From Candidatus Bipolaricaulota bacterium (GTDB taxonomy: Bacteria; Bipolaricaulota; Bipolaricaulia; UBA7950; UBA9294), in the NCBI GenBank assembly GCA_021159055.1, contig JAGGSO010000074.1, forward strand, positions 1 to 32,996: DNA of 32,996 nt, given 5' to 3'. Position 1 is the stretch's first letter. Every line of letters begins with the position of its first letter. Of this stretch, positions 22,020 through 32,398 are shown in pieces. The translations under genes were made by a program, and so were the position numbers. The notes below the pieces were generated by a model. The model saw only the letters and a list, made by a program, of their open reading frames with translations. It did not search any database and had not been told where the DNA came from.

Positions 22020-22515
22020 AAAAGAGGTGACCACCTACTTTCGGACCCGGTTCGGGGTGCCGGAGGAGGCATTCGCCGGAATCAGATTCATCTCCCGTAA
22101 GGACACGATCTGGGCGACGAGCACCGCCCTCCCCCCGTCCCTTTTCTCCCCTCGTCCACCCGGGATCCGCGCCCTGCGCCGGATGGGAACCCGCCTCAAG
22201 CCGACGAGCGTATTCCTCCGCTACCTCGGGAACAGGATCGCATCCTCCCGGGTTGAGATCTCTGAGGTATCCGTCCTCAAGTCCCTACTACTCGGCGGTG
22301 GAATCCCCACCTCCGTTTCCCCGGGCTACGTGGCGCTATCGTTCCGGGGAGAAGTCATCGGTTGTGGTTCCTCGGATGGGGCGAAGGTCAAGGCGATGAT
22401 CCCCACCGGGAGGAGGAGAGAACTCCTCGAGATCCTGGACTCCGATTGTTATCCCCATCACGGAAATTCGACCCCTTATTCTGGTAAGATTGTCCGCGAA
22501 GGAGGGGGAAAATGA
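21997..22515 (+). CDS. Stand-alone PUA-like RNA-binding partner of the methyltransferase
   Basis: A 172-residue protein resembling the C-terminal domains of RsmF/YebU methyltransferases: [14 protein letters not shown], a central [13 protein letters not shown], then the PUA-like strand pattern [31 protein letters not shown]. The chosen start is TTG 21997, six nt after GGAGGTGG and overlapping the methyltransferase by 23 nt in another frame; a longer frame upstream is antisense-like and was ignored. The arrangement suggests a gene split of a fused ancestor with translational coupling, the two chains working together. Its stop overlaps the next ATG (ATGA). Confidence 0.75.
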
Positions 22516-24548
22516 ATAAGGAGGTAGGAATGCGTGGCAGAAGATTAGCAGTGTTGCTCGGCCTTTTGCTCGGGCTTCTTGTCTATGGTATCGTACAGGC
22601 GGCTCCTCAGAACCTGGTATTGATCCTCGACGCTTCCAACAGCATGAACAAGGCGTTTGGAGCGCAGACCAGGATCGAGGAGGCGAAGGGGGCTCTGTCG
22701 GAACTCCTCGGGACCCTGCCGGAGGGGATAAACATCGGCGCGATCGCCTATGGCCATCGGGTGGCAAAAACCGATCGCGACGCGAGCTGCAAGGACATCG
22801 AGGAGGTATTCCCGCTGCAGCCGCTCACCGCGCAGCTGCGCAGCGACATGGTCTCCACCCTCAAGGGGATAACGGCGCAGGGGATGACCCCGCTCGCCGA
22901 CGCCCTCGCCCGCGCCGGCGATGCCCTCGCCAATGCGCAAGGGAATCGGATGATCCTCCTCCTCACCGACGGAGAGGAGACGTGCGGCGGCGACCCGCTG
23001 GCAGTGGCACAGCGGCTTGGGGCGATGGATCCCCCGGTCGAGCTCAACATCGTCGGGATCGCGGTCGATCCGGAGGTGCGGGATTCTCTGACCGCGATGG
23101 CTGCAGCGACCGGTGGTCAGTACCGCGACGTCGGACAGGCGGATGATCTGTTCTCCGCCCTCGCGGCGGCGATCTCCCCGCCAGCGGAACAGAAGCCGGC
23201 GATCCCCCCGGAGTACGCGTGCATCGGGATCACCAATGTGGTCAAGGGAACAGAGGGGAACGACACCCTGTACGGCACCCCGGGGAACGACTTGATCTAC
23301 GGACTCGGCGGGGATGATCTGATCATCGGGCTCGGCGGGAACGACGTCCTCCTCGGCGGCGCGGGGGACGATGTCATCGAGGGCCTGGACGGGAATGACC
23401 TTCTAAACGGCGGGCCGGGCAACGACACCATATTCGGTGGGGCCGGGGACGACCTGATCGCAGGAGGGCTGGGGAACGACTCCCTCGAAGGAGAGGCGGG
23501 CAACGATTGCCTCGACGGCGGTCCAGGAAACGACAAGCTCCTCGGCGGGGCCGGGAACAACCTCCTCTACGGTGGAGGAGGTGACGACGTGCTGATGCAG
23601 GGGCAGATCTCCAATGCGCCGTGCATCCCCACCTGTCCGCCGGTATGCTCGGCATGTGGGTCAACCCCGTCGCCTCTCCCTTGCTGTCCGGGGCCGAGGG
23701 CGGCCAAGGTAGTCGATGAAGGGACGCAGATCAGGCTGCATGGGACCGTCGCCGATGACGACTGCGGAGTGACCCAGGTCTGCTGGACGGCAACGGCCGG
23801 GACGTTCGATGATCCGACCGCGCTCGACCCGCTTTACACAGCCCCGATGGTGAATTGCTGCCAGGGGATCGACGTCAAGGTGACCCTCACCGCGACCGAC
23901 AAGTGTGGGGCGAGCTCGTCCGACTCGTTCGTGATCCACGTGCGGAACGTCAACCATCCCCCGGTGGTCGAGGCCGGACCGGACGTGGTGGTGGACGAGA
24001 ACGGGACGATCCAGCTCACCTGCTCTGCGTCCGATCCGGACGGAGACTCGTTGAGCTACTACTGGACGGTGGAGAACGGCCGCGGGGTCATCTCCGATCC
24101 GTGCATTCTCCATCCGACCTACACTGCACCTGAGGTCTCTTCCTGCAATGGGGAGGACGTGGTACTGACTCTGACCGTGACCGATGCGTGCGGGGCGTCG
24201 AGCTCGGACACCCTGACGGTGCACGTGCGCAACGTCAATGCACCGCCGATCGTGCAGCTCGGCCCGGGGTTTGCCATGCCCGAGGGCGCGAGCAAGCGGC
24301 TCGCCGCGGTGGCGAGCGACCCGGAGTGCGAGGCGCTCACGTACTACTGGACAGCGAGCGCGGGGAGCTTCGACGACCCGTTCGCCGCAACCCCGGTGTA
24401 CACCGCACCGCTGACCAGCAACTGCGACGGGGAGGATGTATACATCAACCTCACCGTCACTGACCCGTGCGGGGCGAGCGCGTGCGCAACCATGTGCATC
24501 CACGTCCAGAACGTTAATGCACCACCGCAAGTTAAAGCCGATCCGTAA
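22512..24548 (+). CDS. Secreted VWA + RTX calcium-repeat + PKD-like repeat protein
   Basis: A 678-residue exported mosaic. Residues 1-31 form a Sec-type signal peptide. A VWA domain begins ~34, with MIDAS D40-ASNS, Thr in [11 protein letters not shown] and Asp in [13 protein letters not shown]. Residues 246-362 hold 13 consecutive RTX nonapeptides of the GGxGNDxLx type, a parallel beta-roll binding calcium. A short Cys-rich linker ([14 protein letters not shown]) follows, then three ~95-residue PKD-like repeats, each ending HVRNVNxPP or [12 protein letters not shown] proteins usually leave by type I secretion, yet this has an N-terminal signal. No sorting anchor is seen. ATG 22512 overlaps the previous stop and has GGAGGGGG; an extended -10 (TGGTAAGAT, 22482-22490) may add a promoter. 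Confidence 0.9.
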
Positions 24549-24657: not shown

Positions 24658-26034
24658 TCACCTCGGGAAGGGGATGTGGACAACGAACCTCGCCCCACCC
24701 TGAGGGCGGTTGCTCGCCCGGATCGTACCGCCGTGCGCCTCGGTCCATTGCTTAGCGATCGCCAGCCCGAGGCCGGAACCTCCGCCCGCCCGGGTCCGCG
24801 CCCGGTCGCCCCGGTAGAACCGCTCGAACAGGTGGGGGAGGTCGTCGGGTGATATCCCGGGACCGTTGTCCTCCACGATGAACTCGACCCCGTCCCCGGC
24901 CCGCCGGAGAGAGACCTCGATCACCCCGTCCTTCGGGGTGTAGCGAACGGCGTTGCTGACAAGATTTACGATCACCTGCCTGATTCGCATCGGGTCGACC
25001 GGGATCGGGGGGAGGGAGTGATCGACTTGCACCTCGATCCGCGGGCCGTCCTCGAGGGCTCCCGCGATCGTCTCCGTCACCTGCTCGACCAACGCCGCCA
25101 GGTCGGTCGGGGTGCGGTTCAACGGGAGCTCACCCGCCTCGGCCAGCGACAGCTCGCGCAGGTCGTCGATCAGCCGACCGAGGTGGAGGGTCTCCTCGTA
25201 GATCGGGGCGATCGTCTCCGGGGTCGGCTCGTAGATCCCGTCCAGGATCGCTTCCAGGTTCCCCTGGATGATCGTCACCGGGGTGCGAAGCTCGTGGGCG
25301 ATGTCCGCGGTCATCGTCTGGCGCACCCGCTCGGAGCGGCGCAGGTTCTCGATCATCCGGTTGAACGACTCGCCGAGCTGCCCGAACTCGTCCCGCGCCC
25401 GCAGGACAACGCGCTGGGAGAGATCACCGCTCGCGATCCGCTCCGTCGCCCGCGCCAGGAGGTGAAGCGGGGATAGTACCTGGGAGATGAGGATCATCGC
25501 CAGGAACAGGGCAACTCCGGAGGCGATCCCACCTCCGATCAGGGCGGAGTGCTTCGCCGAGGTGAGAAACTTCTCCTCGGCCGGATCGAGGATCGAGGAG
25601 CTTGCGTCGAGGACCAATGTCCCGACGCGGACGCTCCCGATTTTGATCGGGATCCCGGACGCGATCTCCTTTGGGGTAAGGATCGTCCCCACCCGATCCG
25701 GCTTTGTGGAGACGATCACCTTCCCCGTCTCATCCGCGAGGGAGAACGGCCCGATCATCGACGTCCGCCGCACGATCAGCCTCCCATTGATGAACACGGT
25801 GTACTGGGTGGATAGGAGGCGCTCGATCCCGAACCAACTTCCGTTTTCCATCCGATACGCGGCGAGGAGTCCGGATACCTGCCGCGCGACCTGGGCCCGG
25901 TTCTGGGCACGAAACTCGGCGAACTGAGCGGTGATCGAGTGGGCGGTGAGGAAGTAGATCAAGGCAACCGTGACCAAAATCACGACCACAAACGACAGTC
26001 CGAGCTTGAGTGCAAATGGGAACCGGCGCTTCAT
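24658..26034 (-). CDS. HAMP-domain sensor histidine kinase (OmpR-type partner, pair 1)
   Basis: A 458-residue membrane kinase: TM1 (LGLSFVVVILVTVALIYFL), an extracytoplasmic sensor of about 130 residues (including GSWFGIERLL and GIPIKIGSVRVGTLVL), TM2 (ALIGGGIASGVALFLAMILI), HAMP (SPLHLLARATERIASGDLSQRV), phospho-His in MTADIAHELRTPVTII, and the ATPase domain (N-box LVSNAVRYT, EDNGPGIS, GGGSGLGLAIAKQ). ATG 26034 is preceded by GGGTGAT; a GTG nine bases upstream overlaps that SD and is less likely. It follows its regulator gene after 42 nt. The architecture and sensor layout mirror the kinase at 30561, indicating paralogy. Confidence 0.94.
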   Translation of the reverse strand: MKRRFPFALKLGLSFVVVILVTVALIYFLTAHSITAQFAEFRAQNRAQVARQVSGLLAAYRMENGSWFGIERLLSTQYTVFINGRLIVRRTSMIGPFSLADETGKVIVSTKPDRVGTILTPKEIASGIPIKIGSVRVGTLVLDASSSILDPAEEKFLTSAKHSALIGGGIASGVALFLAMILISQVLSPLHLLARATERIASGDLSQRVVLRARDEFGQLGESFNRMIENLRRSERVRQTMTADIAHELRTPVTIIQGNLEAILDGIYEPTPETIAPIYEETLHLGRLIDDLRELSLAEAGELPLNRTPTDLAALVEQVTETIAGALEDGPRIEVQVDHSLPPIPVDPMRIRQVIVNLVSNAVRYTPKDGVIEVSLRRAGDGVEFIVEDNGPGISPDDLPHLFERFYRGDRARTRAGGGSGLGLAIAKQWTEAHGGTIRASNRPQGGARFVVHIPFPR

Positions 26035-26076
26035 CGAAATCACCCGCTGATGCCCCGTATCCTGCTGCGGGACTCT

Positions 26077-26763
26077 TTATTTAACATCCCTTGCAAACCG
26101 GTAACCAACTCCGTGCACGGTGAGGATGTAGCGAGGGTTCTTCGGATCCTCGTTCAGCTTGCGACGGATGTTCTTCACGTGCGTGTCGATCGTACGGGCA
26201 AACGAGTCGTAGGTGTAGCCCTGCACCTCGCGCAACAGCTGGAGCCGGGTGAATACCTGCCCGGGATGGCGGGCGAGAAAGGCAAGGAGGTCAAACTCAG
26301 TCGGAGTGAGGTCGATCGTTTCCCCATTCAGGGTCACCTCTCGCCCCATCAGATCGATGACGAGGTCACCGGCCTCGATCCGCTCCGGTTCCTCCATCTT
26401 CCCCTCGCTCCGGCGCAGCACCGCCCGCACCCGGGCGACGAGCTCACGGGGGGAGAACGGCTTGACTACATAATCGTCCGCTCCGAGCTCAAGGCCGATC
26501 ACCCGATCGGTCTCCGCTGCCTTGGCGGTGAGCATAATGATCGGGACGTTCGAGTGGGATCTAATCCGCTTGGTGACATCGATCCCGCTCATCTTGGGGA
26601 GCATCAGGTCGAGCACGATCAGGTCCGGATTCTTGTCCTCCACCTCGCGCAGGGCCTGTTCCCCATCGTAGGCGGCGTAGGTCTTGAACCCTTCCCTCTC
26701 CAGGTACGCCCGCACCGTGCGGACGATCATCTCTTCATCGTCGACTACCAGGATCCGCTTCAT
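26077..26763 (-). CDS. OmpR/PhoB-family response regulator (pair 1)
   Basis: A 228-residue DNA-binding regulator. The receiver has ILVVDDEEMIVRTV, phospho-acceptor Asp in DLIVLDLMLPKMSG, MLTAK and ADDYVVKPFSPREL. The winged helix has IDLTPTEFDLLAFLARHPGQVFTRLQLLREVQGY and the recognition segment TIDTHVKNIRRKL, ending ILTVHGVGYRF. ATG 26763 lies 8 nt after a perfect extended -10 and has no SD, so translation is probably leaderless. It is upstream of and likely cognate to the HAMP kinase. Target genes are unknown; autoregulation is possible. Confidence 0.95.
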   Translation of the reverse strand: MKRILVVDDEEMIVRTVRAYLEREGFKTYAAYDGEQALREVEDKNPDLIVLDLMLPKMSGIDVTKRIRSHSNVPIIMLTAKAAETDRVIGLELGADDYVVKPFSPRELVARVRAVLRRSEGKMEEPERIEAGDLVIDLMGREVTLNGETIDLTPTEFDLLAFLARHPGQVFTRLQLLREVQGYTYDSFARTIDTHVKNIRRKLNEDPKNPRYILTVHGVGYRFARDVK

Positions 26764-26995: not shown

Positions 26996-28069
26996 ATGCG
27001 CACGATCTTGATCGTATCCACCGATAACCGAGCGGGGAAGAGCCTCCTCTCCCTCGGTCTCGGGCTCACCCTGCGGGAGAATGGGATCCCATTTTCCTAT
27101 ATGAAGCCGATCAGCTCCAAGGTCTCCTACTCCACCGGCGAGCCGCTCGACCGGGACGCAGGAACGATCCGGGACGTCCTCGGGCTCGATGACCCACTGA
27201 AGGAGATCGCCCCGGTCGCCCTGGAGGGGCCGTTTCTGCAGGAAGCGATCGAGTCCGGGGACCGCGGGTTCCACCGCCGGATCGTGGACGCGTTCGAGCG
27301 GATCACCGCGGGAAGGGACGTGGCGATCGTGGAGGGGCGACGCTACCTCGGGCTTGGGACCGGGGCCGGGCTGAGCGATCTCGACCTCGCCGAGCTCCTC
27401 GGGGCGGACCTCCTCCTCCTCACAAGCTACGACGGCGAGGAAGCGATCGACCGCATCTTGTGCGCGCTGCGGATGCTCGAGGGCGGCCCGAACGTCCTCG
27501 GGGTGGTAATCAACGAAGTGGCGATGGAATCGCAGTTCGAGCAGGTGCGCGATGTGTTCGTCCCGTTCCTCGCTGATCGTGGGGCCGAGGTCCTCGGGAT
27601 CATCCCCTACGAGCGACGTCTCCGCTGGGTCCAGGTAGACGAGATCGTCGAGCGCCTCGGGGGAAAGGTCCTGACCGACGTCCCCCTCGAGCTCCCGGTG
27701 GAGAACTTCCTCGTCGGGGCGATGGGGCCGGAGGCCGCGCTGCGCAGCTTCCGCCGCACCCCGAACCTGGGGGTGATCACCGGTGGGGACAGGCATGACT
27801 TACAGGAGGCGGCCCTCACCGTTCCCAGCCTCCACTGTCTGGTCCTCACCGGGAACCTGCGCCCGCCGCGTCGGATCATCGAGCTCGCCAACACCCGCGG
27901 GGTGCCGATCATCCTCGTCGGGCAGCACACGATGAGCGCCGCTCTCCTCTGCCAAGAGCTCCCGGAGCGGTCACGGCTGCGCCGCGGGGCCCGGCTCGAC
28001 GAGGCGATCGAGCTCGTACGAAAGAACGTCGACCTTGAGCTGATCCTGGAGAAGGCGGAGGACCGTTAA
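26996..28069 (+). CDS. BioD-like/DRTGG-domain P-loop protein (phosphotransacetylase N-terminal type)
   Basis: A 357-residue cytosolic protein of the BioD-like P-loop family (COG0857 type). The nucleotide-binding loop is VSTDNRAGKSLLSLGLGL. SYMKPISSKV and VAIVEGRRYLGLG are typical, and a C-terminal DRTGG domain runs from about residue 230 (LGVITGGDRHDLQEAAL, RGVPIILVGQHTM). In phosphotransacetylases this module precedes the Pta catalytic domain, which is lacking here, so a regulatory or unknown ligase-like function is likelier than dethiobiotin synthesis. ATG 26996 has AAAGGAG. The stop shares bases with that of the convergent osmC gene. Confidence 0.82.
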   Translation: MRTILIVSTDNRAGKSLLSLGLGLTLRENGIPFSYMKPISSKVSYSTGEPLDRDAGTIRDVLGLDDPLKEIAPVALEGPFLQEAIESGDRGFHRRIVDAFERITAGRDVAIVEGRRYLGLGTGAGLSDLDLAELLGADLLLLTSYDGEEAIDRILCALRMLEGGPNVLGVVINEVAMESQFEQVRDVFVPFLADRGAEVLGIIPYERRLRWVQVDEIVERLGGKVLTDVPLELPVENFLVGAMGPEAALRSFRRTPNLGVITGGDRHDLQEAALTVPSLHCLVLTGNLRPPRRIIELANTRGVPIILVGQHTMSAALLCQELPERSRLRRGARLDEAIELVRKNVDLELILEKAEDR

Positions 28070-28482
28070 TCGGGCTCGACCACCGACTCCCAGGTCACTT
28101 CCGCCACTTTGTTGATGATGTTGGTGATCGGGCAGTAGCGCTCCATCGAGAGCCGAATCGCTTTATCGGCGTTCTCCTTGGGGACGTTCCCCTTGAACCG
28201 ATAGATGAGGTGAACCTTGGTCAACACCTTCGGATGCTCGGTCGCACGGGCGTCCTCGATCTCGATCCGAAACTCCGTGGGGACAGTGCGCATCTTGCGC
28301 AGGATCGAGATCACGTCCATCCCGGTACACCCCCCCAGGGCGCACAGCATCGTCTCCACCGGGCGAAGGGCGGTATCCTCCCCTCCGACCCGGGGATCGG
28401 AATCCATCAGAACCGCATGCCCGCTCTCCCCCTGCCCGATAAATTGCATCCCACCTGCGAACTTGACGATCGTCTTTCCCAT
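28066..28482 (-). CDS. OsmC/Ohr-family peroxide-handling protein
   Basis: A 138-residue OsmC-fold protein. Family members reduce organic or other hydroperoxides using two cysteines, both present here: one in MLCALGGCTGMDVISIL and one in MERYCPITNIINKVAEV. VGGEDTALRPVETML is the usual substrate-side segment. ATG 28482 has GGAGGAGCG. It is transcribed away from arsR-glutaredoxin-PDO, sharing an intergenic region with two palindromes, so joint redox control is likely. It could be a YhfA/OsmC-like member rather than strict Ohr. Confidence 0.92.
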   Translation of the reverse strand: MGKTIVKFAGGMQFIGQGESGHAVLMDSDPRVGGEDTALRPVETMLCALGGCTGMDVISILRKMRTVPTEFRIEIEDARATEHPKVLTKVHLIYRFKGNVPKENADKAIRLSMERYCPITNIINKVAEVTWESVVEPD

Positions 28483-28490
28483 CGCTCCTC

Positions 28491-28516
28491 CAAATATTTA
28501 ACTATTTAAATACTTG
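28491..28516. promoter_or_regulatory. AT-rich imperfect palindrome, candidate ArsR operator
   Basis: A 26-bp site beginning CAAATATTTAA and ending TTAAATACTTG is symmetric at 22 of 26 positions. It touches the osmC SD on one side and the arsR -35 box on the other, so one bound dimer could control both directions. Confidence 0.65.
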
Positions 28517-28542
28517 ACAGGGATCACCCTGTCGGATACCAT
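28514..28542 (+). promoter_or_regulatory. Promoter of arsR-glutaredoxin-PDO operon
   Basis: Perfect TTGACA (28514-28519), 17-nt spacer, TACCAT (28537-28542). An upstream palindrome overlaps the -35 box and a second fills the spacer. Confidence 0.8.
28516..28533. promoter_or_regulatory. Perfect palindrome in the promoter spacer
   Basis: GACAGGG-ATCA-CCCTGTC is an exact inverted repeat with 7-bp arms that fills the space between the -35 and -10 boxes. It is a strong repressor-site candidate distinct in sequence from the AT-rich site beside it. Confidence 0.65.
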
Positions 28543-28571
28543 TCTAGCCGATGAAAGAAAAGGAGCAACCG

Positions 28572-28850
28572 ATGAGGGAAACAGAAGCGAGAAAGCGGTG
28601 GGTGGAGGTGTTCTCCGCGCTGGCGAGCGAGCCGCGTCTCCGTATCGTGGAGATGCTGATCGGCCGCACCGTCGACTGCCAGGAGATTCTGGACGAGCTC
28701 TCATTGAGCCAGCCAGCGGTCTCCTATCACCTCGGTCGGCTCGAGCGGGCCGGGGTGTTGGTGAAGGAGCGGAACGGAGCGCGGAACTGCTACCACCTGA
28801 ACGAGGACCTCACCGGACTCATAGAGCTATTGAAGGAGGAAGTAAGATGA
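28572..28850 (+). CDS. ArsR-family transcriptional regulator
   Basis: A 92-residue winged-helix protein: KRWVEVFSALASEPRLRIVEML, DCQEILDELSLSQPAVSYHLGRLERAGVLVKERNGARNCYHL. It has two cysteines, one in VDCQEI and one in RNCYHL, which could sense thiol state; the classic CVC metal motif is absent. ATG 28572 is preferred because AAGGAG is six nt upstream. An in-frame ATG at 28551, 8 nt after the -10 box, would give a leaderless form seven residues longer. Its stop overlaps the glutaredoxin ATG (ATGA). Probable controller of its own operon and osmC. Confidence 0.9.
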   Translation: MRETEARKRWVEVFSALASEPRLRIVEMLIGRTVDCQEILDELSLSQPAVSYHLGRLERAGVLVKERNGARNCYHLNEDLTGLIELLKEEVR

Positions 28851-29086
28851 GTCACGAGGTGATCATTTACACAACGCCGACCTGCTCATGGTGCCAGGCG
28901 CTCAAGGAGTATCTGCGGGCGCGGGAGGTCGATTTCGAAGAGATCGATGTCTCGGCCGATCCGGCAGCGGCGCAGGAAATGATCGACAAGAGCGGACAGA
29001 TGGGAACTCCGGTCGTGGACATCGACGGCGAGATCATCGTCGGGTTCAACAAACCGGAGATCGACCAACTACTGGGACTAAACTAG
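28847..29086 (+). CDS. Glutaredoxin-like protein (CSWC)
   Basis: A 79-residue small thioredoxin-fold reductase: IIYTTPTCSWCQALKEYLRAREVDFEEIDVS with redox pair C13-S-W-C16, MGTPVVDIDGEIIVGFNKPEIDQLL as the cis-Pro strand and C-terminal helix. It resembles NrdH/glutaredoxin-like proteins reduced by larger disulfide oxidoreductases. It is coupled to arsR by a 4-nt overlap and precedes the PDO gene by 8 nt, so PDO is the likely reductase partner. Confidence 0.95.
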   Translation: MSHEVIIYTTPTCSWCQALKEYLRAREVDFEEIDVSADPAAAQEMIDKSGQMGTPVVDIDGEIIVGFNKPEIDQLLGLN

Positions 29087-29094
29087 GAGGAACG

Positions 29095-29736
29095 ATGGCA
29101 CTGATCGGAAAAGAGGACCAGGACTACCTGCGGAACGAGTTCCTGCGCCTGGAGAAGCCGGTACGGCTCGTGTTGTTCACGAACGAATCCTGCGCCTCAT
29201 GCGCGGATACGAAGACCCTGCTCGAGGAGACGGCCGCACTGTCGGACAAGATCTCAATCGAGGTCTACGATCTGGCAAAGGACGCCGACAAGGCGAAGGA
29301 GTACGGAGTAGAGGGCAGGGCGCCGACGATCGCGGTCATGGGCGAGAAGGACTACAACATCAGGTTCTACGGGATCCCGGCCGGATACGAGTTTGGTACC
29401 CTGATCGAGGATATCATCGACGTCGGCCGCGGTGAGACCGGACTGTCGGATACAACCAAACAGGAGCTCGCGGAGCTGACTGTGCCCGTGCACATTCAGG
29501 TGTTCGTCACCCCGAGCTGTCCCTATTGCCCGCGGGCGGCGCGGACGGCGCACATGATGGCGTTCGAATCCGAGATGGTGAAGTCCGACGTCATCCTCGC
29601 CAACGAATTTCCCGTACTCTCCCAACAGTACAACGTGATGGCCGTACCAAAAGTGGTCATCAACGAGAAGACGAGCTTCGAAGGGGCGATCCCGGAGGAG
29701 GATTTCCTCTCGTTCGTCAAGCAGGCAACAGCTTAA
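29095..29736 (+). CDS. Protein disulfide oxidoreductase (two thioredoxin folds)
   Basis: A 213-residue PDO-type protein, a family typical of thermophiles, with two fused thioredoxin folds. The N-terminal fold holds C33-A-S-C36 (TNESCASCADTKTLLEE) and RAPTIAVMG. The C-terminal fold holds C142-P-Y-C145 (VFVTPSCPYCPRAARTAHMM) and VMAVPKVVINEKTSFEGAIPE, the usual PDO ending. CPYC is the active pair in characterised members; CASC is unusual for the first site. ATG 29095 has AGGAGG. It acts in cytoplasmic disulfide exchange, probably with the adjacent glutaredoxin. A terminator follows. Confidence 0.93.
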   Translation: MALIGKEDQDYLRNEFLRLEKPVRLVLFTNESCASCADTKTLLEETAALSDKISIEVYDLAKDADKAKEYGVEGRAPTIAVMGEKDYNIRFYGIPAGYEFGTLIEDIIDVGRGETGLSDTTKQELAELTVPVHIQVFVTPSCPYCPRAARTAHMMAFESEMVKSDVILANEFPVLSQQYNVMAVPKVVINEKTSFEGAIPEEDFLSFVKQATA

Positions 29737-29760
29737 CTAAAGGGTATAAACGTCACTGAT

Positions 29761-29793
29761 AGCGCCCCGAACTTCATCGGGGCGCTTTTTTCT
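29761..29793 (+). terminator. Intrinsic terminator after PDO
   Basis: AGCGCCCCGA pairs exactly with TCGGGGCGCT around the loop ACTTCA, followed by a T-rich tract. It separates the thiol operon from the two-component genes. Confidence 0.95.
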
Positions 29794-29813
29794 TGTACAC
29801 GGAGGTCGAGAGG

Positions 29814-29833
29814 TATAATGCCTTCGGCATTAT
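29814..29833 (+). promoter_or_regulatory. -10 box inside a perfect palindrome, regulator pair 2
   Basis: TATAAT (29814-29819) lies at the left of ATAATGCC-TTC-GGCATTAT (29815-29833). The expected transcription start falls in the right arm, so this is a DNA-level site, not a transcript hairpin. The -35 is weak (TTCTTG with 18-nt spacing). Confidence 0.6.
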
Positions 29834-29863
29834 CCTATGAAATAAGGTTGACGGAGTGTTGCG

Positions 29864-30571
29864 ATGGCTAAAATCGTTCTCATAGTCGACGATGAAGAGG
29901 AATTGGCTAAGTCGATCTCGGATTACCTGCACCAGGCCGGGTACCGCACGATCGAAACGTTCGACGGGGCCTCAGCGCTGGCCGAGTTCGACTCCCACCG
30001 ACCGGATCTGGTCATCCTCGATCTCGGACTCCCCGACATCGATGGTCTTGACGTCGCACGGGAGATCCGCCGCCGGACGCAGGTCCCGATCATCATGCTC
30101 ACCGCACGGGCGCAGGAGGTGGACCGGATCGTCGGGCTCGAGCTCGGAGCGGACGACTACATCACGAAGCCGTTCTCTCCCCGCGAGCTCGTGCTGCGGG
30201 TGCAGGCGGTCCTGCGCCGGTTGGCCGGACCGGCCCCGGAGGCTCCGGTGCGGATCGGCGACCTCGTGATCGATCTCGCCGGGCGGGAGGTGCGCCGGGA
30301 CGGCGCTCTCATCAAGCTCACCCCGACCGAGTTCGACCTCCTCGCCTTCCTCGTCCGTCGGCCGAACCGGGTCTTCACCCGGCTCGAGCTCCTCAAGGAG
30401 GTGCAGGGTTACACCACCCCTGCCCTGATGCGGAACATCGACAACCACATCATGAACCTGCGGCGGAAGATCGAACCGGACCCGGCCGAACCGCGGATCA
30501 TCAGGACCGTCTACGGGGTCGGGTACAAGCTCGTCATCCCCCGGACACAAGGAGACAACGACGAAACTTAG
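29864..30571 (+). CDS. OmpR/PhoB-family response regulator (pair 2)
   Basis: A 235-residue regulator: receiver VLIVDDEEELAKSI, phospho-acceptor in DLVILDLGLPDIDG, MLTARAQEVDRIVGLELGADDYITKPFSPREL; winged helix KLTPTEFDLLAFLVRRPNRVFTRLELLKEVQGY and IDNHIMNLRRKIEP. It is close in sequence to the regulator at 26077, so the two are paralogues. ATG 29864 has ACGGAG seven nt upstream. Its last codons overlap the likely start of the kinase gene. The downstream exported protein and DUF4405 gene are plausible targets. Confidence 0.95.
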   Translation: MAKIVLIVDDEEELAKSISDYLHQAGYRTIETFDGASALAEFDSHRPDLVILDLGLPDIDGLDVAREIRRRTQVPIIMLTARAQEVDRIVGLELGADDYITKPFSPRELVLRVQAVLRRLAGPAPEAPVRIGDLVIDLAGREVRRDGALIKLTPTEFDLLAFLVRRPNRVFTRLELLKEVQGYTTPALMRNIDNHIMNLRRKIEPDPAEPRIIRTVYGVGYKLVIPRTQGDNDET

Positions 30572-31913
30572 ACCGGTCTCGCTTCGCTACAAGCTGTTCT
30601 TCGGCCTCGCTGTCGTGGTCGTCGCCTCCCTCGGAGCGGTCTACGCCGTCGCCACCCACCTTCTCGTCACCGACGCCAAGGAGTTCATCGCATCGGAGCA
30701 CGCGGCGCAAGCAGTCGGGATCAAGGCCCAACTCGTCTCCTATTACTCGGAGAACATGACCTGGGACGGGGTGGAGAAGCTGTTCAGCGAACACGGCCGG
30801 TACAGGGGAGAGGAGCACGGACAGGGTGGACAGTTCCTCCTCACCGATCCCGAAGGGAGAATCGTCTACGCCGGTTCGCACAAGCTCAGGGAGGTGAATC
30901 TATCCCCGCGCCTCCTTGCCGAAGGGATTCCAATAACTGTGGAGGGGAAGAAGGTCGGAATCCTGTTCACCGGCCCGCTCCTCGGCCAGTTCACCGAAAT
31001 CGAGGAGAGGCTCCTGAGCTCGGTCCGCCGCACGGTGGCCTACGCCGCGGTAATCAGCCTGGGGATAGCCCTCGGGATCGGTCTGACCCTGTTGCGCCTC
31101 ATCACCGCCCCGTTCGAGCGGTTGACCGCGGCGACCAGGGCGATCTCCTCCGGCGATCTCACTCACCCGGTTCCGGTCCCTGGTGACGATGAGATTGGGA
31201 GGCTCGGGCGCGTTCTGGAGGAGCTGCGTGTCGGGCTATCCCGCTCGGAGGCCGCGCGCCGGCGCATGCTCGCCGATATCGCCCACGAGCTGAGGAACCC
31301 CCTCGCCATAATCCGGGCCAAGGTGGAGGCGATGCTCGACGGGATCCAGCCCGCGAACGAAGAGAACCTGATGACCGTGAACGAGCGGCTCCTCCACCTC
31401 TCGGGGTTGGTCGACGAGCTCCAGGACATCGCCCTCGCCGAGGCGCACGAGCTTCCCCTCGACCGCGCTCCGATCGACCTCGTTGAGTTCCTCCGCGGGG
31501 TCGCCGCAGACGCCCGCACCCTGCTGGCCGGGGCCGATAAGAAGTTCAACCTGGAGATCCCTGCCAAACTACCCCGCGTCTCCGCCGATCGACGGCGCCT
31601 GCACCAGATCGTGTGGAACCTGCTCTCCAATGCGCTGCGTCACACCCACCCCGGCGATGAGATCACCCTGCACGCCGAGCCCCGGGGAAGGGAGGTCCTG
31701 ATCCAGGTGAGCGACACAGGAGAGGGGATGCCCGCGGAGACCGTCTCCCACGTCTTCGACCGCTTCTACAAAGGGAAGGGCTCGAAGGGGCTCGGGCTCG
31801 GCCTGGCGATCACCAAGGCCCTTGTCGAGTCGCACGGCGGCCGGATCTGGGTGGAGAGCGCCCCCGGAGAGGGTACGCGCTTTTCGTTCACCATCCCGAT
31901 TTCCCGAACTTAG
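30561..31913 (+). CDS. HAMP-domain sensor histidine kinase (pair 2), probable ACG start
   Basis: A 450-residue kinase if begun at ACG 30561: TKLRPVSLRYKLFFGLAVVVV leads into TM1. The sensor loop (TWDGVEKLF, GIPITVEGKKVGILF) resembles pair 1. TM2 is near TVAYAAVISLGIALGIGL. HAMP (APFERLTAATRAISSGDLTHPV), phospho-His in LADIAHELRNPLAII, N-box LLSNALRHT, DTGEGMP and GLGLGLAITKA are intact. The first ATG/GTG/TTG in frame is GTG 30615, inside TM1. The ACG at 30561 lies six nt after AAGGAG, ideal spacing. A C-to-T change would give ATG and be silent in the overlapping regulator, so a sequencing error is the alternative. Confidence 0.85.
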   Translation, partial: TKLRPVSLRYKLFFGLAVVVVASLGAVYAVATHLLVTDAKEFIASEHAAQAVGIKAQLVSYYSENMTWDGVEKLFSEHGRYRGEEHGQGGQFLLTDPEGRIVYAGSHKLREVNLSPRLLAEGIPITVEGKKVGILFTGPLLGQFTEIEERLLSSVRRTVAYAAVISLGIALGIGLTLLRLITAPFERLTAATRAISSGDLTHPVPVPGDDEIGRLGRVLEELRVGLSRSEAARRRMLADIAHELRNPLAIIRAKVEAMLDGIQPANEENLMTVNERLLHLSGLVDELQDIALAEAHELPLDRAPIDLVEFLRGVAADARTLLAGADKKFNLEIPAKLPRVSADRRRLHQIVWNLLSNALRHTHPGDEITLHAEPRGREVLIQVSDTGEGMPAETVSHVFDRFYKGKGSKGLGLGLAITKALVESHGGRIWVESAPGEGTRFSFTIPISRT

Positions 31914-31972: not shown

Positions 31973-32017
31973 AGCCCGGGTATCTTTGCAACATCCAAAC
32001 GAAAAGGAGTGGTCAAA

Positions 32018-32398
32018 ATGACCAAGACAAAGACGATAGTCATCGGGATCTTGTTGCTCACCCTGCTCGCGTTTGGGCTCGTTGCCCTGGCGGGGGGAGG
32101 ATTCGGGAAAGGCGTTCCTTCAGATAAACCGGGAGCCGGCGCATGCATGCAGGAGCGGGACTCGGACGGGGACGGGATCCCCAACTGCGATGATCCCGAT
32201 TGGACCCGTCCACTCGACGGGACCGGCTATGGAGCGACGAACTGTCTCCATGCCGGAGCCGAAAACGGACATGAGAACGGCCTCCACGACAGAGACGGCC
32301 GTGGACAGGGGAGCTGCCAGCGCAACGGGAACGGTGGCGGCCGCGGAATGCACCGCGGTTACGGGAACGGTGCCCGCATGGGTGTAAACAGCGAGTAG
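32018..32398 (+). CDS. Small exported Gly/Asn/His-rich protein with calcium-loop-like motif
   Basis: A 126-residue protein of unknown function. Residues 1-27 form a clear signal peptide (TKTIVIGILLLTLLAFGLVALAGG). An Asp-rich loop, RDSDGDGIPNCDDPDW (residues ~45-60), resembles thrombospondin type-3/dockerin-like calcium loops. The rest is low-complexity, rich in Gly, Asn, His and Arg (GHENGLHDRDGRGQG, RNGNGGGRGMHRGYGNG). His/Asp content would suit metal binding. ATG 32018 is eight nt after AAGGAG. It follows the kinase gene by about 100 nt and may report or buffer the signal sensed by it (inference). Confidence 0.75.
   Translation: MTKTKTIVIGILLLTLLAFGLVALAGGGFGKGVPSDKPGAGACMQERDSDGDGIPNCDDPDWTRPLDGTGYGATNCLHAGAENGHENGLHDRDGRGQGSCQRNGNGGGRGMHRGYGNGARMGVNSE

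Follow-up and report, generated by a model that had tools for sequence, protein, structure and literature searches.

The window is a 32,996-nt stretch of DNA, formed by a single contig of a 1.62 Mb Candidatus Bipolaricaulota draft genome, and it carries an osmC gene on the minus strand that diverges from an arsR-grx-pdo cluster on the plus strand. A preliminary description had proposed a divergent OsmC / ArsR-glutaredoxin-PDO module, and Pfam and NCBIfam profiles confirmed all of its genes. The first encodes a 138-aa OsmC-family protein (28069-28482, minus strand; Pfam OsmC PF02566, 58.2 bits against a cut-off of 27.5) that has both the domain and the two conserved cysteines of the OsmC/Ohr superfamily, while its score for the NCBIfam subfamily PRK10738 (82.1 bits) lies under that model's cut-off of 138. 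Its Shine-Dalgarno sequence, read from the sequence, is GGAGGAG on the minus strand (28487-28493). The ArsR-family repressor (28551-28850, plus strand) is recognized by HTH_20 (39.5 bits, cut-off 27), HTH_5 (34.8 bits, cut-off 22) and NCBIfam HTH_metalloreg (63.6 bits, cut-off 55), and these profile scores, together with a fold match, place it in the ArsR/SmtB family with its characteristic winged helix-turn-helix. Its probable start is the ATG at 28572 rather than the one at 28551 of the listed reading frame, because a Shine-Dalgarno sequence, AAGGAG (28560-28565, plus strand), recurs in relatives. The glutaredoxin frame (28847-29086, plus strand) shares 4 bases with the end of arsR and encodes a YruB-type protein with a CSWC motif (TIGR02196, 96.8 bits, cut-off 88.55). 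The PDO gene (29095-29736, plus strand) encodes two thioredoxin-fold halves with CASC and CPYC motifs (TIGR02187, 273.6 bits, cut-off 185), and an intrinsic-terminator-like hairpin of 10 pairs with a T-rich tail stands 3' of it (29761-29786, plus strand); 3 such sites were found in the stretch scanned, compared to 1.3 expected. The genome also has a thioredoxin-reductase-like gene (323.3 bits, under its cut-off of 343.45).

Several other features adjoin these genes. An AAA_26/DRTGG protein identified by Pfam (26996-28069, plus strand) lies tail to tail with osmC, and such a neighbour is present at 20 of the 24 family loci with a linked glutaredoxin and, elsewhere in the phylum, at some of the remaining loci. 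Response regulator/histidine kinase pairs flank the redox module on both sides (24658-26763, minus strand, recognized by eye; 29864-31913, plus strand, recognized by Pfam). Farther away, a 678-aa frame (22512-24548, plus strand) has, by eye, a von Willebrand-like N-terminus followed by RTX-type GGxGxD and PKD-like repeats that suggest a calcium-binding protein, either surface-located or secreted, and a small exported-looking protein (32009-32398, plus strand; no Pfam match) has a DSDGDGIPNCDDPDW stretch that by eye is of calcium-binding type.

We determined how widely the module is distributed. Among the 33 genomes of the family, 29 contain an ArsR match at an E-value of 0.001 or better, paralogues included. 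The module is not universal, as the other four lack any ArsR match and some of the rest hold only paralogues or broken copies; a glutaredoxin gene stands beside arsR at 24 family loci, one per genome. A search across 100 genomes of the phylum found matches in at least 91, and 76 loci were examined (30 from the family search, 6 from the phylum search and another 40 picked from the listed phylum matches, these being mostly the best per genome). At L032 the queries used matched no ArsR, which left 75 loci, 66 with a linked glutaredoxin and 9 without. Six of the 9 unlinked ArsR loci are intact and three are cut or damaged, by a run of N (L029), a broken frame (L033) or a contig end (L034). All 66 linked glutaredoxins have their CxxC motif. 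Of these 66 loci, 51 show OsmC, 22 show PDO and 13 show both, which are lower bounds because some contigs and stretches end early. The constant core is ArsR plus glutaredoxin, by definition of the set, with OsmC common and PDO optional. The OsmC neighbours retain the first cysteine motif in 51 of 51 cases and the second in 49 of 51. A separate clade (L108-L114) has the order ArsR-Grx-PDO with no OsmC match in view, and the first, N-terminal CxxC of its PDO is gone in all six readable proteins (L108-L111, L113 and L114). The same six PDOs retain a CPYC motif in their C-terminal half.

Beyond the phylum, a wider contig scan that employed two peptide patterns only returned 37 loci, 30 of them with a glutaredoxin match beside arsR. 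Most of these 30 are labelled Bipolaricaulota, Bipolaricaulis or Acetothermia, four are labelled 'bacterium' and four carry the labels of other phyla (Neomarinimicrobiota twice, Atribacteria and Caldisericota). Four further loci of the scan, labelled Actinomycetes, Chloroflexota, archaeon and Streptomyces, had no glutaredoxin match. Among 400 genomes around one seed genome labelled Chloroflexota (G101), only the seed matched at an E-value of 1e-22, a weak comparison because at most 13 candidates were scored per genome and many glutaredoxin-linked ArsRs of the phylum score worse than this threshold. The module is likely restricted to the phylum.

The arsR promoter consists of a -35 hexamer TTGACA (28514-28519, plus strand) and a -10 hexamer TACCAT (28537-28542, plus strand) separated by a 17-bp spacer, identified by a promoter scan and by conservation. 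It is the sole sigma-70-like promoter in 28440-29900; since 0.6 such promoters are expected by chance, the support for it rests on conservation. Directly upstream lies a 26-bp AT-rich palindrome (28491-28516), a candidate operator for ArsR, whose right end overlaps the TTGACA. The preliminary description had placed an AT-rich palindrome over the -35, and the element is present and conserved, though imperfect, with 11 of its 13 positions paired (P = 0.0002 when 28483-28571 is shuffled by dinucleotides). Because the stretch is AT-rich, the window reached a P-value of only 0.12 in a cruder test, which used arms of 8 bp and shuffled single nucleotides. A second, overlapping dyad (28499-28516; paired at 7 of 9 positions in the window) is centred on the TTTAAA at 28505-28510.

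We aligned the osmC-arsR gap of 27 family loci, anchored on the -35; 24 of them have a linked glutaredoxin and three have a cut or damaged ArsR. The core of the AT-rich operator is as constant as the promoter hexamers, while the spacer is near background. Counted from the first base of the -35, columns -18, -17, -9, -4, -3, +2 and +3 do not vary at all. Across the 27 loci the two dyads, whose axes are 4 bp apart, average 6.74 and 6.93 (TTTAAA axis) of 9 pairs over a background of 2.64 (sd 1.08), and so by pair score they fit the operator about equally; only the axis of the originally described 26-bp palindrome pairs the invariant columns -18 with -3 and -17 with -4. Covariation among 25 distinct operators (13 pairs for one axis, 12 for the other) yielded no pair at P 0.05 and is too weak to be decisive, because most operator columns hardly vary.

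The 18-mer of the second dyad, CAANTATTTAAATANTTG, occurs with at most one mismatch at 16 places in 15 of the 33 family genomes, all of them directly upstream of the module's arsR, while its reversed control has one match, in G000. In the window's own genome, allowing three mismatches, it occurs at three places compared to two for the control: the two overlapping dyads described here and one weak place on another contig (C153). A regulon of this ArsR elsewhere in its genome was rejected: beyond this locus there is just that one weak three-mismatch place, no more than the control produces. The other families of the phylum likewise have an AT-rich segment against the -35, with a different sequence: TTTTAAAA, TTCCA...TGGAA and TCAAC...GTTGA types occupy the same place. 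The window's family has the TATTTAAATA type, whereas at L142, L144, L145 and L148-L153 the DNA upstream of ArsR carries a GTTGA at the -35 with TCAAC- or TCAAT-like units in front of it. We compared dyad bias at 61 of the 66 loci, five being left out for want of a callable promoter. The best palindrome had a median shuffle P-value of 0.10 upstream and 0.85 in a spacer/-10 control, with P-values below 0.05 at 15 and 1 of the 61 loci, respectively. Outside the window's family, the putative operator differs in sequence, but a site that is AT-rich and biased towards dyads remains on the -35.

A scan of 28440-29900 found no consensus promoter for osmC on the minus strand. The 68-base gap from the start of osmC to the first arsR ATG holds the operator, and this geometry suggests that osmC may be jointly controlled. 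One damaged locus (L033, in G014) still has its osmC gene and, in front of the broken ArsR frame, a clean AT dyad, TATTCATA-TG-TATGAATA; the broken frame is either a pseudogene or an assembly error.

A GC-rich inverted repeat, GACAGGG-N4-CCCTGTC (28516-28533), follows the AT-rich site. It had been described as a perfect 18-bp palindrome filling the spacer; its 7-bp arms are perfect, but four bases (ATCA) are unpaired, and the repeat begins within the -35 hexamer, which partly supplies its left arm, and stops 3 bases short of the -10. The preliminary description had read the two unlike sites as evidence for two regulators or a second sensor. In such an arrangement the AT-rich site would serve ArsR and the GC-rich site another protein, consistent with perfect arms that occupy most of the spacer, with a nominal shuffle P-value of 0.008 (arms of 7, gap of at most 4, in 28516-28571) and with one congener that retains 5-bp arms at a different gap (GACAG-N6-CTGTC). 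The P-value rises to 0.036 when gaps of up to 10 are allowed anywhere in 28483-28571, and the 33-kb window contains 20 repeats with 7-bp arms and gaps of at most 4 (overlaps not collapsed), so that the repeat is nominally unusual, not rare. The suggested motif search for its regulator returned this sole perfect copy in the own genome and no regulon; at up to three mismatches, the repeat had 111 matches there compared to 150 for its reversed control. It is absent from all 32 other family genomes, many of which are incomplete drafts, and the second of the two congeners has just an unrelated TCCA-N9-TGGA in its place. Along the repeat's axis, the alignment of the 27 family loci pairs at 2.8 of 9 positions, compared to a background of 2.6. 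With no partner regulator found either, we rejected a second regulator at this site and consider the two-operator arrangement very improbable. The repeat is best taken as a species-specific or chance feature without a shown role. What stands of the original proposal is the redox module with an ArsR-type regulator and an operator between its divergent genes; of its two palindromes, the AT-rich one is conserved and the GC-rich one is not, so that the lack of palindrome conservation which the proposal had named as a ground for refutation holds for the GC-rich site only.

The ArsR of the window has only two cysteines, C43 and C80 (numbered from the frame that starts at 28551), 37 residues apart. 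Both are invariant in the 23 aligned ArsRs of the family. They occur together in 60 of the 66 glutaredoxin-linked ArsRs, and neither is found at those positions in the six intact unlinked ArsRs, counts that come from related and therefore not independent loci. Among the six linked exceptions, five (L130-L134) have the first cysteine one residue earlier and keep the wing cysteine, and one (L141) has a tryptophan in place of the wing cysteine. Six family ArsRs (L016, L018, L020, L024, L027 and L028) have a further cysteine near the C-terminal helix, so that in these relatives the pair is not the sole thiol. AF2 models the window's protein confidently as an ArsR fold (mean pLDDT 90.5). Residues 41-42 form a short strand, 43-50 a helix, and 70-75 and 78-83 the wing strands, so that C43 begins alpha3 and C80 belongs to the second strand of the wing. 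From this predicted secondary structure and from the RexT paper (PMC8960804), we infer that C43 and C80 could join. By the ranges of the sequence matches, they fall within one or two residues of the alpha3 cysteine and the wing contacts of RexT.

Such a pair could instead bind a thiophilic metal or As(III), making the protein a metal sensor and leaving the thiol oxidoreductases to repair metal-induced thiol damage. ArsR/SmtB proteins usually sense metals, the NCBIfam model that recognizes this one is named metalloregulator and two cysteines can hold As(III). The classical ArsR, SmtB, CzrA and CadC sensors share its fold, and they have AT-rich operators at the promoter. Their metal sites are an alpha3 Cys-x-Cys or alpha5 His/Asp residues, however, and C43 is a single cysteine that aligns with the valine after the cysteine of SmtB LCVG, not with a Cys-x-Cys, while the C-terminal helix (alpha5) has no conserved His/Asp site in the 23 aligned proteins. 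The recurring neighbours found (OsmC, glutaredoxin, PDO and the DRTGG protein) are likewise not transport or arsenate-reductase genes. We regard metal sensing as quite unlikely.

A second possibility is that the pair senses sulfane sulfur (persulfide or polysulfide) by SurR- or SqrR-like chemistry, the genes serving sulfur metabolism and not peroxide defence. In Thermococcales, according to the SurR literature (PMC12162507, PMC7278568), PDO is under the control of the S0-sensing ArsR-type SurR and is also its in vitro reductant. A structure comparison aligned the ArsR model to ArsR folds at Z up to 14.0, the best matches being HlyU and CzrA, with SqrR and BigR further down, and several source samples appear from their titles to be sediments or dives. 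On the other hand, the alpha2 cysteine position of HlyU is a glutamate in the window's ArsR, the last helix has no cysteine and the BigR model scores only 27.2 bits against a cut-off of 155. We regard sensing of sulfane sulfur as unlikely, and it is chemistry that would separate it from the regulon that we favor.

We consider it reasonably probable that this locus makes up a thiol-switch regulon of its own, composed of a two-cysteine ArsR repressor, an AT-rich operator and a reset by glutaredoxin and PDO. Oxidative or sulfur stress is probably what the small ArsR detects, turning on the disulfide-repair genes beside it in response. When reduced, an ArsR dimer would bind the one AT-rich operator (28491-28516) and, because this site overlaps the -35 and sits in the short gap before osmC, would repress arsR-grx-pdo and probably osmC. 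Oxidation by peroxide, disulfide stress or sulfane sulfur, signals among which the sequence does not discriminate, would link C43 to C80 through a disulfide or sulfur bridge; the winged helix would be distorted as a result, and ArsR would leave the operator on the -35. Since NolR and other relatives contact DNA with alpha3 as well as with the wing (PMC8960804), the bridge could lower DNA affinity. Glutaredoxin and PDO would then be produced, clearing protein disulfides and re-reducing ArsR in a negative feedback, while OsmC would remove peroxides. The two reductases would be the natural reductants of ArsR, a role that TrxR-Pdo plays for SurR in vitro.

More broadly, there may be a class of single-domain ArsR redox switches in which the bridge fastens the residue that opens alpha3 to the second strand of the wing, within the DNA-binding unit, and which is reset by a glutaredoxin of the same operon. 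Such a class would be old in a phylum of uncultured bacteria, with an operator that drifts in sequence and stays fixed on the -35; we give this proposal an even chance. If it is correct, bacteria far outside the cyanobacteria also link ArsR-type thiol switches to disulfide reductases, and the cysteine geometry is a third beside those of SurR and RexT. The locus also offers a small, clean test system, with one protein, one operator, two cysteines and one glutaredoxin, and adds a regulatory module to the little-studied Bipolaricaulota. Among the titles and abstract beginnings of open-licence PMC papers, we found no study of an ArsR-glutaredoxin-OsmC module, and papers on Bipolaricaulota and oxidative stress, judged by title, included none on redox regulation.

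SurR of the Thermococcales is an ArsR-type winged-helix thiol switch beside a PDO gene, and the window likewise has an ArsR-type winged-helix protein with a PDO gene in its operon. According to the SurR papers (PMC12162507, PMC7278568; also PMC4463584, PMC6981617), it represses pdo when reduced and releases it upon oxidation, and TrxR-Pdo reduces it in vitro (PMC12162507, PMC7278568). The same papers describe an archaeal global regulator with two wHTH domains, a CxxC at 24/27 in the N-terminal one and a divergent pdo. In contrast, the window's ArsR is a 99-aa single domain with no CxxC and no second, C-terminal wHTH, and its cysteine pair spans 37 residues across alpha3 and the wing. Its operon also holds a glutaredoxin, osmC is the divergent gene and the operator is found only at its own locus. 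SurR controls an adjacent PDO gene; among the 66 glutaredoxin-linked ArsR loci, a PDO gene is in view at 22.

SqrR, BigR, HlyU and YgaV are two-thiol ArsR-type persulfide or redox sensors and among the closest solved folds; PMC8960804 places their cysteines in alpha2 and alpha5, and the window's ArsR has neither. RexT of Nostoc is a single-domain ArsR/SmtB redox switch beside the thioredoxin-fold gene trxA2, and its alpha3 cysteine contacts the wing residues His75 and Asn77 (PMC8960804). RexT (7txm) matched the window's ArsR by sequence (E-values of 1.7e-4 and 4.8e-8), ranking below many metal sensors; it is not among the 50 entries listed in the structure comparisons of the model, which excludes nothing. 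PMC8960804 attributes its switch to a vicinal Cys40-Cys41 disulfide on alpha3 and suggests that no group but the cyanobacteria has such a switch (102 of the paper's 105 thioredoxin-linked sequences). No adjacent cysteine pair occurs at that place in the loci compared; the partner of the alpha3 cysteine would be a wing-strand cysteine, and the neighbouring gene encodes a glutaredoxin, which has a thioredoxin fold and is not a thioredoxin. SurR/Pdo and RexT/TrxA2 perform the kind of task proposed here through different cysteines, and the window's ArsR belongs to neither.
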